64,000 nt of DNA from Altererythrobacter sp. TH136 (GTDB lineage Bacteria; Pseudomonadota; Alphaproteobacteria; Sphingomonadales; Sphingomonadaceae): positions 2,279,501 through 2,343,500 of the forward strand of contig NZ_CP041409.1 in NCBI RefSeq assembly GCF_007065885.1. The letters are read 5' to 3'. The stretch's first letter is position 1. Each line of letters begins with the position of its first letter. The translations under genes were made by a program, and so were the position numbers. Positions 15,357-19,409 of this stretch are shown in pieces. A model generated the notes under the pieces. The model saw only the letters and a program-made list of their open reading frames with translations, was not told the origin of the DNA and searched no databases.

Positions 15357-16748
15357 TTAGCGGCGCGCCATGCGCACCCCGGTATTGACCGCGCCCGGCA
15401 GCGGCCGGCCCTCGGCCCAGGCGATGCACTGTTCGCCCTTGCCGCGCACCGTCGAGCAGACAGAGCTTGCCTGAGCCCGCTGGAGGCCGCCGGCGCTGAC
15501 CCGGTAGTAGGTCTTACCGCGCACCACCGCCTTAGTGATCACCATGTCGAAGGCGGAGAGCTGCGGGAACCGCTTGGCGTAAATGGCCCATGCGCGCTGG
15601 GCACTGGCTTCGGAAGAGAAGGAGCCGAGCTGCACGAGATGGTCGCCGGACTGACTGGCGGCGACGGTCCGGTTCGCGGCTTTGCGGACCGGCTTGGCCG
15701 AAGCGACGCGGGTCGGAGCCTGCTGGATCACCGGCTGGGCGACAAATTCCGCAGCGGAAGCGATCATCTGTGCAGGTGTCGCGCCACTGGGCGCTTGCGC
15801 GGCGAACGCGGTGTCGAAGTCTGCCGAGGGCACGGGTGTAGGCGCGGGCGCAGGAGCAGCCACTGCCACCTGCATCGCCACCGGGGCAGGCTGGGCGGCT
15901 GGTGCATAGCTGCCGACTGGCGGCAATTCGCCACCGGCAAAGGCGACTTCCTGCGCTGGCGCGGGTTCGGTCACCGGGGCGGCGACGGCTGCTGCCTCGG
16001 CCACCAGCTGGCCGTGGCTCGGGTGATTGGCGAGCGCCAGTTGCACCGGCTGGCCGGCGTCAGCCACCGCCCGCGTGCCCAGCAGGGCCGCCACGCGGTT
16101 GGTCGACTGGTCGGGCGTCGAAAGCGCCGCCCACTGGGTAAGTCGCGCGCCGAGTTGGTCGGCGGGCACATCTTCTGCCGCCATGATCCGGGCGCCGGCC
16201 CAATCGCCGCCCAGGGCGAGCGCATAGGCCAGGTTCTGGCGCACCTTGGGCGTGTTGTCTCCGCTGCGCAGGGCATTCGACAGCACGAACGCACCCTGCT
16301 GCGGTTCACCGGCGAGGGCGAGCGCCAGGCCCAGGTCCGCCGCGGCGATATCGTCGCCATAATCGCTGAGGACGCGCAACGCGGCTGCCCGGTCGCCCGC
16401 CGCCACCGACGCCAGCGCGAAGCCCAACACTGTGCGCGGGCTGGTATCACCCAGCGTCATCGCGTCGTCGAAGCTGGTGCGCGCGGCCAGGAAGCGGCCC
16501 GCATCCATGTACGCCGCGCCCAGCATCGTGCGATAGCTTGCGTTGCGCGGGTCGGCCAGCACGGCGGCTTCCGCATTAGTGATCGCCGAGCCGCTGTCGC
16601 CCCGCGTCATGGCGACCTCTGCCTTGCTCGCCGACAAGTCGGCACGCGGCGCGACATTGGTGGCGCAGCCTGCCAGCGCGGTGGAAGCGAGCGCTGTACC
16701 GGCGGCCAGCGCCAGCATGCGAGAGGTGCGGTTCGTGCGGGTGATCAT
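15357..16748 (-). CDS. SPOR-domain lipoprotein with TPR-like repeats
   Basis: A 463-residue predicted lipoprotein. The signal peptide ends in the lipobox LAGC at residues 25-28. Residues about 40-200 are helical TPR-like repeats (AVLADPRNASYRTMLGAAYM and similar). A long Ala/Pro-rich linker follows, then a C-terminal SPOR domain beginning HLVQLGSFSSEASAQRAW. SPOR domains bind denuded septal peptidoglycan, so the protein probably acts in the periplasm at division sites. It is the last gene of parA-RHH-SPOR, 23 bases after the RHH gene. The family is clear; the precise role is unknown. Confidence 0.85.
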   Translation of the reverse strand: MITRTNRTSRMLALAAGTALASTALAGCATNVAPRADLSASKAEVAMTRGDSGSAITNAEAAVLADPRNASYRTMLGAAYMDAGRFLAARTSFDDAMTLGDTSPRTVLGFALASVAAGDRAAALRVLSDYGDDIAAADLGLALALAGEPQQGAFVLSNALRSGDNTPKVRQNLAYALALGGDWAGARIMAAEDVPADQLGARLTQWAALSTPDQSTNRVAALLGTRAVADAGQPVQLALANHPSHGQLVAEAAAVAAPVTEPAPAQEVAFAGGELPPVGSYAPAAQPAPVAMQVAVAAPAPAPTPVPSADFDTAFAAQAPSGATPAQMIASAAEFVAQPVIQQAPTRVASAKPVRKAANRTVAASQSGDHLVQLGSFSSEASAQRAWAIYAKRFPQLSAFDMVITKAVVRGKTYYRVSAGGLQRAQASSVCSTVRGKGEQCIAWAEGRPLPGAVNTGVRMARR

Positions 16749-16771
16749 GGTATCTTCCCCTGTGGTCGCGT

Positions 16772-17317
16772 TCAGCGCCGCTGAACTTGCGCGGCGAGCG
16801 TATCGAGTTCGGGCATGTCAGCGAGCAGCGCGTCGAGCGCGTCGGTCACCAGCGCCTGTGCGCTCACGCCCTTGATGGTGGTGGCAAGCCGCAGCTTCAG
16901 ATGGCGGTGCGGATCGAGACGCAGCGTAAACGCGGCCCGGCCGGTCCGCTGTTGCACCGAACGCCGTTTGGTCGGTGCCGGCGCGGGGGCCATGTCCGGT
17001 GCCGGTGCATCGAGACGCTCGGCGAGCTGTTCCTGCTGGCGAACCACGGCCGGCAGCGGAGCCTCGGTGTCCGTTTCTTCGACCATGCGCGGCATCGGGG
17101 TGAGCTGATACACCTCCGCGCCGGTCGCGACGGCAGGCTCGTGCTCGCCCATGTCGTTCCAGCCGAGATCCTCGAGCTGGTCGGGCGCAGGTGCCGTCAT
17201 GGGTTCGGCTGCCGTCATCGCGGCGAGCGCCGCATGCTGCGGACGCATGGCCGGCTTCGCGCCGCCCTTGCGAGCGAGCAGCGACGGGCTGAGCGAGGCG
17301 AAGGTGACTTCGGCCAT
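16772..17317 (-). CDS. Ribbon-helix-helix protein encoded downstream of ParA (ParG-like)
   Basis: A 181-residue protein. Residues about 1-125 are low-complexity, Pro/Ala- and Glu-rich, probably disordered. The C-terminal part contains GRAAFTLRLDPHRHLKLRL, followed by two helices ending in LVTDALDALL. This is the beta-strand/helix/helix pattern of ribbon-helix-helix DNA-binding proteins. Type Ib partition systems (ParF/ParG) pair a small ParA with exactly such a protein in this gene order. DNA binding and any partner role are inferred. The start at 17317 gives MAEVTF and leaves 31 bases after the parA stop. Confidence 0.7.
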   Translation of the reverse strand: MAEVTFASLSPSLLARKGGAKPAMRPQHAALAAMTAAEPMTAPAPDQLEDLGWNDMGEHEPAVATGAEVYQLTPMPRMVEETDTEAPLPAVVRQQEQLAERLDAPAPDMAPAPAPTKRRSVQQRTGRAAFTLRLDPHRHLKLRLATTIKGVSAQALVTDALDALLADMPELDTLAAQVQRR

Positions 17318-17348
17318 CTGCGATTCGGCCTTTCTCTCGTGCCTGCGC

Positions 17349-18065
17349 TTACTGCGCCACCCGGCGGCCGAAGCCACCCTGGGGACGATATGCGCTGGGC
17401 GCGGCGGACACCGCGTTGGGCGCGGCGAACACAGTGCGGCGGAAGTTCTTCTCCAGCCGGTCGGATACATAGTTCCAAAGCGCGGCGACCTCGGCGGCCG
17501 AGCGGCCTTCGGGGTCGACTTCCATCACCGTGCGGCCGTCGATCATCGAGGCGGCGAAGTCAGTGCGGTGGTGCAGCGTGATCGGCGCGACGGTTCCGTG
17601 CTGGCTTAGCGCGACGGCGGCTTCGGACGTGATCTTGGCCTTGGGCGTCGCGGCGTTGACTACGAAGATCAGCGGCTTGCCGGCCCGTTCGCACAAATCG
17701 ACCGTGGCGCCGACGGCGCGCAGATCGTGCGGGCTGGGGCGGGTGGGAACGACGATCAGTTCGGCCACACCGATGACCGACTGGATCGCCATCGTGATCG
17801 CCGGCGGAGTATCGATCACCGCCAGTTTGAAGCCCTGCTGGCGCAGCACCTGGAGATCGCTGGCGAGTCGCGCCACTGTCGTCTGGGCGAAAGCCGGATA
17901 TTCGGCCTCCCGCTCGTTCCACCAGTCGGCCAGCGATCCTTGCGGATCGATGTCGATCAGCACCACCGGCCCGGCGCCGGCGCGCTGCGCCTGTACGGCC
18001 ATGTGCCCGGACAAGGTTGTCTTGCCCGATCCACCCTTCTGCGAAGCCAATGCCAGTACCCGCAA
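17349..18065 (-). CDS. Small ParA/MinD-family ATPase (orphan, type Ib-like)
   Basis: A 238-residue Walker-type ATPase. The deviant Walker A is ASQKGGSGKTT, Walker A' is VLIDIDPQGSLADWW, and Walker B is LAVIDTPPA. It lacks an N-terminal HTH domain, as in ParF-type partition ATPases and positioning ATPases. The start is TTG at 18063-18065, giving MRVLALASQKGG, with AGGGGGAC just upstream. The open frame continues to 18302 but is not family-like. No parB is nearby; a ribbon-helix-helix gene follows instead. Likely roles are positioning of a cargo, protein complex or DNA locus; the true cargo is unknown. Confidence 0.82.
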   Translation of the reverse strand: MRVLALASQKGGSGKTTLSGHMAVQAQRAGAGPVVLIDIDPQGSLADWWNEREAEYPAFAQTTVARLASDLQVLRQQGFKLAVIDTPPAITMAIQSVIGVAELIVVPTRPSPHDLRAVGATVDLCERAGKPLIFVVNAATPKAKITSEAAVALSQHGTVAPITLHHRTDFAASMIDGRTVMEVDPEGRSAAEVAALWNYVSDRLEKNFRRTVFAAPNAVSAAPSAYRPQGGFGRRVAQ

Positions 18066-18096
18066 GGCTGGTCCCCCTGAAAAACCCGTTGCCAAA

Positions 18097-18154
18097 GTGC
18101 ACCCATGCACCCTTCGCCAGAGGAGATCGCAGCATACCCCTAATTTAACGTTAA
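18097..18154. promoter_or_regulatory. Candidate operator region between parA and the SPOR/Sel1 gene
   Basis: The 222-base divergent region holds a perfect inverted repeat GTGCA-CCCA-TGCAC (18097-18110), which also contains the direct repeat GCACCC twice. It also holds a 10-base palindrome TTAACGTTAA (18145-18154). Ribbon-helix-helix regulators of ParA cassettes bind short repeated elements upstream of their operon, so these are plausible sites. There is no experimental support. Confidence 0.4.
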
Positions 18155-18287
18155 TCCTCCCGTCGGCGGTGCCACTGCTGGGCGCCCGAAAGTGCCCTCC
18201 ACAGAAACCCTTTGCTAACGGCTGGTTCACTATGTCACGCTGGTCATCAGCCCGTTCATCGGGCGACAGGGGAAGAGCTCGATCACC

Positions 18288-19409
18288 ATGCGCCTGACGC
18301 ACTCCATCGCCATCACGATGCTCGCGGCGGGGCTCGCGTTAGCCTCGATCCCGGCGCACGCGGACGTGAAGGCGGGCGTGGACGCGTGGGCTTCGGGAGA
18401 CTTCGCGCGCGCGATCGCGGAATGGAAGGGACCCGCCGCCAAGGGCGATGCGGATGCGTTATTCAACCTCGCCCAGGCGTATCGGCTTGGGCGCGGGGTG
18501 CCCGAAAACATTGCCGAAGCCGAGAGCCTGTATGCACGCGCGGCGGCGAAAGGGCATCTCAAGGCGGCCGACAACTATGGCCTGCTGCTGTTCCAGGACG
18601 GCCGCCGCGAGCAGGCTTTGCCGTATGTCACCGCCGCTGCCGAACGCGGCGATCCGCGTGCGCAGTACCTGCTGGGGATCGCCTATTTCAACGGCGACCT
18701 GGTAGTGCGAGACTGGGTGCGGGCTTACGCGCTGCTAACGCTGGCGAACGCGGCTGACCTGCCGCAAGCGCGGCCCGCGATCCAGCAGATGGACGAATTC
18801 GTGCCGTTGGCGCAGCGCCAGCAAGCGCAGTCGCTGGCGGCGCAGATGCGCGCGCAGGCAGATGCCATCCGCACTGCGCAGTTGTCCGCGGCGGATCTGG
18901 GGCAGGGCTTCGATGGCGTAGTGCAGACGCCGGTGCGCACCGCCGCGGTGCAGGGATCTCAGCCGATTGCTGGCGCGCCGGCTCCGCTGTCCGTGGCTTC
19001 TGCCGAAGCCGCGGTGGCCGAAGCCATGCGCGCGACCGGCACCGAAAGTCCGGCTGATGCCGGAGCGGACTTTGCCAGGCCGGCGCGGGCCCAGGTTGCC
19101 GCTGCGCCGCCGGTGCGCGAGCGCGCGCAGGTGCAAGCGGCGCGCGCCGCTTCGCCCGCTCGCGCCGAAGCGCCTGACACGAGCGGACCGTGGAAGGTTC
19201 AGCTCGGTGCCTTTGCAGTGGCCGGCAACGCCGACCGGCTGTGGTCGCAGTTGACGGGCAGGTCGGTGCTTTCCGGCAAGAGCAAGGTCACTATGCGATC
19301 CGGACGGTTGACCCGGCTTCTTGCAGCCGGGTGGGCGACGCAGGGCGACGCGCAAGGTGCGTGCAACGCGCTCAAGGCGGCGGGGCAGGGCTGCATCGTC
19401 ACCCGTTGA
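18288..19409 (+). CDS. Secreted Sel1-repeat protein with C-terminal SPOR domain
   Basis: A 373-residue protein with a signal peptide cleaved after AHA (residues about 1-25). Residues 30-150 contain Sel1-like repeats (FNLAQAYRLGRGVPENIAEA, then YLLGIAYFNGD), followed by a Gln/Ala-rich region. The C-terminal SPOR domain starts at WKVQLGAFAVAGNADRLW. It is predicted periplasmic and able to bind septal peptidoglycan. AGGGGAAG lies upstream of the ATG at 18288, and a GCCCG-TTCAT-CGGGC hairpin sits in the leader. It is divergent from the parA operon, whose last gene encodes another SPOR protein, which suggests a shared process. Confidence 0.85.
   Translation: MRLTHSIAITMLAAGLALASIPAHADVKAGVDAWASGDFARAIAEWKGPAAKGDADALFNLAQAYRLGRGVPENIAEAESLYARAAAKGHLKAADNYGLLLFQDGRREQALPYVTAAAERGDPRAQYLLGIAYFNGDLVVRDWVRAYALLTLANAADLPQARPAIQQMDEFVPLAQRQQAQSLAAQMRAQADAIRTAQLSAADLGQGFDGVVQTPVRTAAVQGSQPIAGAPAPLSVASAEAAVAEAMRATGTESPADAGADFARPARAQVAAAPPVRERAQVQAARAASPARAEAPDTSGPWKVQLGAFAVAGNADRLWSQLTGRSVLSGKSKVTMRSGRLTRLLAAGWATQGDAQGACNALKAAGQGCIVTR

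Follow-up and report, generated by a model that had tools for sequence, protein, structure and literature searches.

Genes and features of the locus

Four neighbouring genes at positions 15357-19409 of a 64,000-nucleotide stretch of the Altererythrobacter sp. TH136 chromosome (order Sphingomonadales; the whole stretch is called the window below) encode a small ParA ATPase, a ribbon-helix-helix (RHH) protein and two proteins with SPOR domains. The ParA gene (17349-18065, minus strand) has a TTG start, and its product is a type Ib-like Walker-box ATPase of 238 amino acids (aa) with a deviant Walker A motif, KGGSGKTT. Downstream on the same strand are the gene for the RHH adaptor (16772-17317, 181 aa), whose start was set at the ATG at 17317 in place of a longer open reading frame, and a gene for a SPOR/TPR lipoprotein (15357-16748) with a lipobox, LAGC, recognized by eye. 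The two spacers are 31 and 23 nucleotides (nt) long, which suggests that the three genes form one operon ending with the lipoprotein gene. A SPOR/Sel1 gene (18288-19409, plus strand) is divergent from ParA, and its product has a signal peptide by eye and appears to be secreted. The SPOR domains (PF05036) span residues 367-442 of the lipoprotein (15423-15650, minus strand, 40.3 bits) and residues 299-372 of the Sel1 protein (19182-19403, plus strand, 49.7 bits). Domains of this family bind septal peptidoglycan.

The original prediction, made from the letters of the window, had named these four genes in this order, with the TTG start and the divergent SPOR/Sel1 gene, and all are present as it described them. 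The whole genome, a single contig of 2.6 Mb, has five SPOR matches, two of which are at this locus. With the recurrence of the arrangement across the order, described below, this exceeds what chance would give.

The ParA ATPase and its chromosomal setting

The window ParA is matched by Pfam family AAA_31 at E = 3.2e-12 and by the NCBIfam model NF041546 (ParA family partition ATPase) at 162.5 bits, under the curated cut-off of 180. The KGGSGKTT motif occupies residues 10-17, and there is no N-terminal helix-turn-helix, as in the small ParA proteins of type Ib. When a profile of the ParA sequences was compared with solved structures, TP228 ParF (E = 2.6e-20) and a ParA (5u1g) were the only matches at E ≤ 1e-10. 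The earlier description of the pair as a type Ib-like ParA with an RHH partner is upheld. MipZ was rejected as the identity of the protein: PF09140 scores 31.1 bits (cut-off 20.7) and covers ParA residues 4-55 alone, positions 2-53 of the 262 in the profile, which are the P-loop part.

The ParA is found (E ≤ 1e-55) in 122 of the 147 genomes sampled from the order, once in each. Ninety-seven of its columns are invariant among 31 sequences, and the median best-segment identity within the family of the window is 89% (49 loci). The corresponding medians are 76% for Der (21 loci), 77% for PyrB (40 loci) and 45% for the RHH protein (49 loci); the two SPOR proteins are at 43% and 48%. The best 80 named relatives come mainly from Erythrobacteraceae, Novosphingobium and Sphingobium, and the closest plasmid ParAs are 63-66% identical to the window ParA. 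A quick tree of ParA sequences groups the 27 rows from the order (Shimodaira-Hasegawa approximate likelihood ratio test support 91; one long-branch row from the class lies inside) and leaves the plasmid rows outside. The tree is rooted at its midpoint and has many weak forks; it takes in 17 of the 50 rows of the window's family and 10 of other families, with L247, L252, L255 and L259 omitted. The par pair probably entered the chromosome before the families of the order separated. Two ParA homologues, L243 (in genome G202) and L257 (in G374), have long C-terminal extensions that bring them to 313 and 382 aa.

A second, Soj-like ParA lies elsewhere in the genome (G000:C1:1778086-1778907) with gid-type genes adjoining it by eye, and the studied ParA was therefore rejected as the genome's main ParA. 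The Soj-like protein is present in all 20 genomes checked. Fifteen of these are single contigs, and in them the studied ParA is 0.04-0.50 of a chromosome away from the second ParA, which served as a stand-in for the origin. This wide range lends no support to a fixed site at the origin or terminus. A loose positional preference is possible, as the distance is 0.13-0.30 in 10 of the 15 genomes, four of which belong to one genus.

The housekeeping surroundings noted originally were found again: the genome is the single 2.6 Mb contig, pyrB/pyrC are nearby in 41 of the 60 loci of the order described below, and the pair is not carried by a plasmid or mobile element. A mobile-element remnant was likewise rejected, given the conserved chromosomal surroundings, the one match per genome and the strong conservation.

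The RHH partner and its N-terminal motif

Alignment of 36 RHH proteins reveals two conserved parts, an N-terminal LxxxLLARKGxAxPA and the C-terminal RHH domain, joined by a variable linker. In the window the N-terminal motif is ASLSPSLLARKGGAKP (codons 17252-17299, minus strand). It is near-invariant among the 36 aligned partners and is proposed to be a ParA-binding, ATPase-stimulating peptide.

The RHH domain (residues 127-169; 16811-16939, minus strand) was compared by sequence and by structure. Its Pfam RHH match is below threshold (E = 0.019), and the sequence profile finds an archaeal-virus RHH protein at E = 0.002 and ParG at just E = 0.3. The AlphaFold model has a mean pLDDT of 71, with residues 131-180 in blocks of 84-96. 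The best Foldseek match of the model is ParG (1P94), with probability 0.98 and an rmsd of 0.9 over 40 columns at a weak E of 0.56, and a separate structure comparison returned many RHH proteins at Z scores of 3.8-5.5, middling by the scale of the tool. Two residues of its predicted strand, T131 and R133, are invariant among the 36 aligned proteins.

A second motif, EDLGWNDMG (codons 17147-17173, minus strand), stands in the otherwise variable linker and is common to the majority of the window's family. L086 lacks it, L060 and L072 have altered forms, and none of the ten alignment rows of other families shows it; it is a possible second binding site. One partner, that of L080 (5848-7362), reaches 505 aa through a long, acidic, repeat-rich linker with repeats resembling ALELTDAIE.

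The partners encoded downstream of the nearest plasmid ParAs are short and start with SLTSGLVAKKGQAxPA or a sequence near it. Among 10 plasmid loci the motif filter was passed by four, and a looser form was seen by eye in six. The RHH protein, when searched against plasmids, gave no match, so the link to the plasmid partners rests on the motif and on gene position. A paper search for KKXXA, a motif of type Ib partners, gave nothing usable.

A profile made from the N-termini of the RHH proteins gave one strong protein match per genome in all 20 genomes searched, the next best match being at E = 0.003. These comparisons point to the RHH protein as the likely dedicated partner of ParA. Since the motif is common to the RHH protein and to the plasmid ParA partners, the window ParA is not truly an orphan. 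The original prediction had called it one. It was right that no ParB-type gene stands beside it, and Pfam finds no ParB domain in the RHH protein or the two SPOR proteins at E ≤ 1 (the genome as a whole was not searched for parB); the name fails in that the RHH protein itself is likely the partner. A separate partner elsewhere, which would have told against the cassette, did not come to light, as no second motif protein stood out in the 20 genomes.

Conservation of the gene order

The RHH protein is found in 82 of the 147 genomes of the order (E ≤ 1e-3), and 60 of these 82 were taken as loci for comparison; choice by RHH match selects for RHH. The row sets A1, A2 and A3 take in 36, 31 and 18 of the 60 loci. 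SPOR genes in the 60 loci were assigned by a home-made profile or by tblastn.

ParA is directly upstream of the RHH gene in 60 of 60 loci, with a gap of -11 to +33 nt, and a SPOR gene is immediately 3' of the RHH gene in 59. The exception, L097, has two SPOR genes nearby in a rearranged order. A divergent SPOR gene is found upstream of ParA in 49 loci, 45 of the 50 from the window's family and 4 of the 10 from other families. The neighbourhood that had been proposed as a unit is thus conserved in related genomes. The downstream SPOR gene is also retained where the surroundings differ: of 19 loci where pyrB/pyrC were not found nearby, 18 keep it, as do 9 of the 10 loci that belong to other families, the tenth being L097. 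Eight downstream genes from these other families, that of L097 included, were tested against Pfam SPOR, and all eight score above the cut-off.

Genomes that have lost parts of the unit

Five genomes of the window's family (G105, G121, G125, G132 and G133) were picked for having no RHH match. G105, G121 and G133 have neither such a ParA (the ParA of G121 is 36% identical) nor an RHH protein, and no full-length match to the SPOR lipoprotein. In G132 (L310, G132:C21) ParA and RHH are both missing, and the two SPOR genes stand face to face with a TTAA-N7-TTAG box between them.

In G125 (L309, G125:C7) the RHH gene alone is gone from its place between the ParA and lipoprotein genes. The G125 ParA shows 70-72% identity and departs at 12 of the 97 invariant columns, including TPP after Walker B. 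Twenty-nine held-out ParAs of the family that have an RHH partner were used as controls and depart at 0-1 of the 97. The ParA of G125 deviates where RHH is gone, so the constraint on ParA seems to depend on RHH.

ParA partners that are membrane SPOR proteins

This ParA occurs (E ≤ 1e-55) in 39 of 289 genomes sampled from the class (Alphaproteobacteria), and four of the 39 belong to the window's family. Outside the family, 43 places at class level carry the ParA; 40 were fetched as wide loci, and 35 of these have a readable partner. The partners of L247, L252, L255, L257 and L259 are unreadable owing to contig ends, an internal stop or no recognizable P-loop. In L136, L137, L138, L147, L153, L246 and L260 the motif filter failed and the motif was chosen by eye; it is degenerate in L138, L147 and L260.

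In seven of the 35 (L154, L155, L248-L251 and L253) the partner consists of the N-terminal motif, a linker, one helix resembling a transmembrane (TM) segment, and a SPOR domain. The mean Kyte-Doolittle value of the TM-like helix is 1.96-2.71 in these seven partners, compared with 1.55 or less in the others, and Pfam SPOR is over the cut-off in all seven. None has an RHH score below E = 0.24, and two scanned by Pfam show SPOR only. Of the other 28 partners, 25 are RHH by score (E ≤ 0.012 in a search of 45 sequences) and three (L138, L151 and L243) are not. The partner in L151 (G307:C3) bears the motif, and its C-terminal part is neither RHH nor TM; it is possibly a third kind of adaptor.

Five genomes with a TM-SPOR partner (G155, G288, G268, G371 and G352) also bear an RHH-type ParA locus. 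FtsN was considered as the identity of these partners and ruled out in six of the seven genomes, all except G371, where there is a separate SPOR protein linked to argS, FtsN by position, in which the motif is absent by eye. A single origin of the TM-SPOR partners is possible on the quick ParA tree. The home-made SPOR profile had found no SPOR gene beside ParA in the first 20 loci of the class, and it missed both TM-SPOR partners there; having missed two Pfam-positive SPOR partners, it gives an unreliable negative at class level. The motif-TM-SPOR partners appear to be the best evidence of a functional link between ParA and SPOR proteins, more direct than gene order.

The promoter region

In 40 of the 50 family loci the region upstream of ParA has, at a distance of 60-105 nt, a site of the form TTAA-N7-TTAG; dinucleotide shuffles give a mean of 0.5 and a maximum of 3. 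The site in the window is TTAACGTTAAATTAG (18140-18154, minus strand), 75-89 nt upstream of the ParA start. Outside the family, TTAA-N7-TTA(A/G) was seen in 2 of the 10 other loci of the order, no more than chance would give, and in none of 48 class-level and plasmid loci. The box resembles the CtrA consensus, TTAA-N7-TTA(A/G), and is a candidate CtrA-type element of cell-cycle control; G125 and ten family loci are without the exact box, and its word is not enriched across the genome, both of which count against this idea.

Other roles for the box were set aside. The genome has four copies of TTAACN6TTAG and three of a reversed control, so the word marks no large set of sites, and a dispersed centromere was rejected. 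G132 has the box and no RHH protein, so a role as RHH operator is unlikely. No recurrent word with at least three copies was found upstream of the 50 family loci, although degenerate repeats could escape such a search. The word TTAGCAAA or its complement is present in 17 of the 50 upstream regions (L042-L091), by eye nearer the divergent SPOR gene, and may be a promoter of that gene.

Interpretation

By sequence comparison, ParA, RHH and SPOR genes form a conserved chromosomal unit, and the association of ParA with SPOR recurs in two architectures. The cargos that ParA-type ATPases position range from plasmids and chromosomes to carboxysomes and chemoreceptor arrays. The coupling of nucleoid and division is usually explained by inhibitors, namely Min, Noc and MipZ. 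The reading that we consider the most likely, though at even odds, is that in this large group of soil and water bacteria a plasmid-type ParA/adaptor pair has been domesticated as a cell-cycle and envelope unit acting at the interface of nucleoid and septum.

Such a unit would work in four steps. The first is almost certain from the sequences: ParA is an intact deviant-Walker-A ATPase with a dedicated RHH partner. The motif and the behaviour of known ParA partners make it very probable that the basic N-terminal peptide of the RHH protein would bind a nucleoid-associated ParA dimer in its ATP-bound state and trigger hydrolysis, giving a moving gradient of ParA and adaptor. The RHH domain would, with good probability, fix the adaptor to DNA. 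The weakest step is the last, and it is put forward tentatively: the pair may tie the state of the nucleoid to constriction with the co-inherited SPOR proteins. In the TM-SPOR partners one polypeptide would make the tie directly, its ParA-binding peptide lying in the cytoplasm and its SPOR domain in the periplasm. In the window's group it would go through an envelope-spanning factor or through shared cell-cycle expression from the CtrA-box-like site.

Several observations weigh against this reading. Both window SPOR proteins look exported by eye and so would make no contact with ParA or RHH. G132 keeps both SPOR genes and the promoter box without the pair, which indicates that the SPOR proteins also serve a function independent of it. 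The TM-SPOR partners were found outside the order only; in the quick ParA tree their rows are near one another and do not form one clade (three changes). The C-termini of the four closest plasmid partners are weakly RHH by the profile of the order (E = 0.004-0.12). The division or envelope role suggested originally is supported in part: the context makes it plausible and the TM-SPOR partners support a link of ParA with SPOR, whereas a direct complex with the exported SPOR proteins is unlikely and G132 does without the pair.

A broader version is possible and rather doubtful. It would have a class of plasmid-derived, nucleoid-bound ParA in the Alphaproteobacteria act on the septum, with the partner peptide grafted onto either an RHH protein or a membrane SPOR protein, so that the ParA gradient would couple clearance or position of the nucleoid to septal peptidoglycan. 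The RHH and SPOR operon of the Sphingomonadales would then be the split form.

Three other explanations were weighed against the domesticated septal unit. The pair might serve local DNA partition, with RHH binding a site near the operon and ParA positioning the locus, as a left-over or re-used par system to which the SPOR genes are mere neighbours. The nearness of ParA to plasmid ParAs, the partner motif common to their partners, the invariant T131 and R133, and the RHH model being nearest to ParG all agree with this, as does the placement of the locus at 0.13-0.30 from the second ParA in 10 of 15 genomes, four of one genus. We consider it unlikely, however: upstream regions hold no word in three or more copies, the box word (four copies against three for the control) is present without RHH, the full range of distances is 0.04-0.50 with a second ParA in 20 of 20 genomes, and the next gene is a SPOR gene in 59 of 60 loci.

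A comparably low probability is given to a transcriptional switch, in which the RHH protein would act as a repressor at the divergent promoter region under the influence of ParA, timing both SPOR genes without positioning anything. Both SPOR genes are within the reach of the shared intergenic region or the operon, and the RHH partners of plasmid ParAs often autoregulate. A switch would also account for a cytoplasmic pair acting on exported proteins. It does not obviously need an ATPase that is 89% identical across genera, and the conserved box persists in RHH-less G132, which makes it an unlikely RHH operator; the TM-SPOR partners, moreover, show no RHH domain. Passenger linkage, with unrelated ParA-RHH and SPOR genes held together by operon inertia, is improbable: the pair is missing from G132 while both SPOR genes are present, and most ParA-RHH loci of the class are without a SPOR neighbour by the home-made profile, which missed two true SPOR partners, but SPOR adjacency outlasts differing flanks in 9 of 10 other-family loci and motif-TM-SPOR partners occur in the same ParA family.

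If a ParA-binding peptide is indeed joined to a membrane protein that binds septal peptidoglycan, this would be a direct physical route from the nucleoid to the division wall. The natural losses and the TM-SPOR partners are ready-made tests of the coupling. The ParA, present in 122 of 147 genomes and more conserved than the housekeeping proteins compared with it, was found with no function in the literature searched, which makes it a tractable target.

Comparison with known systems

The literature searched, in which subscription journals are thinly covered, was not found to describe a ParA that has a SPOR protein as its partner, which is weak evidence of novelty; a search on the essentiality of the locus in sphingomonads found nothing useful. 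The closest known arrangement is ParF/ParG of TP228, the type Ib par system, which likewise has a small ParA and an RHH partner with a basic N-terminal tail. The window pair differs in being chromosomal, kept across the order and linked to SPOR genes, with no upstream repeat array found. Its partner is longer than ParG and has another N-terminal motif and the extra linker motif.

The modules of plasmid PLAsvaD, Comamonas plasmid pZM22-2, and the plasmids of Deefgea piscis and Methylomonas sp. are alike in that a downstream partner of 80-114 aa is led by the motif and has a weakly RHH-like C-terminus. They differ in that they are plasmid-borne, their partner is short, and the stretches shown have no annotated SPOR gene. 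In the three annotated plasmids the par module adjoins a Rep or TrfA gene.

PpfA/TlpT, ParC/ParP, McdA/McdB and PomXYZ resemble the window pair as chromosomal ParAs with a partner other than ParB, the N-terminus of the partner being the ParA-binding tag according to the portions consulted of PMC10241942 and PMC9178275. They have other partners and cargos (chemoreceptors, carboxysomes, the division site), and those portions name no SPOR partner. Partners of ParA/MinD ATPases work through a disordered, positively charged N-terminus, as described in PMC10241942.

The layout of the TM-SPOR partners, an N-terminal tail, one TM helix and a C-terminal SPOR domain, is shared by FtsN and the FtsN-like RgsS. 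RgsS influences growth polarity and the movement of oriC, according to PMC7822825. The layout of the TM-SPOR partners would also suit a ParA/MinD system that positions a protein cargo, in which the N-terminal peptide of the partner contacts the ATPase and the remainder is the cargo or binds it.

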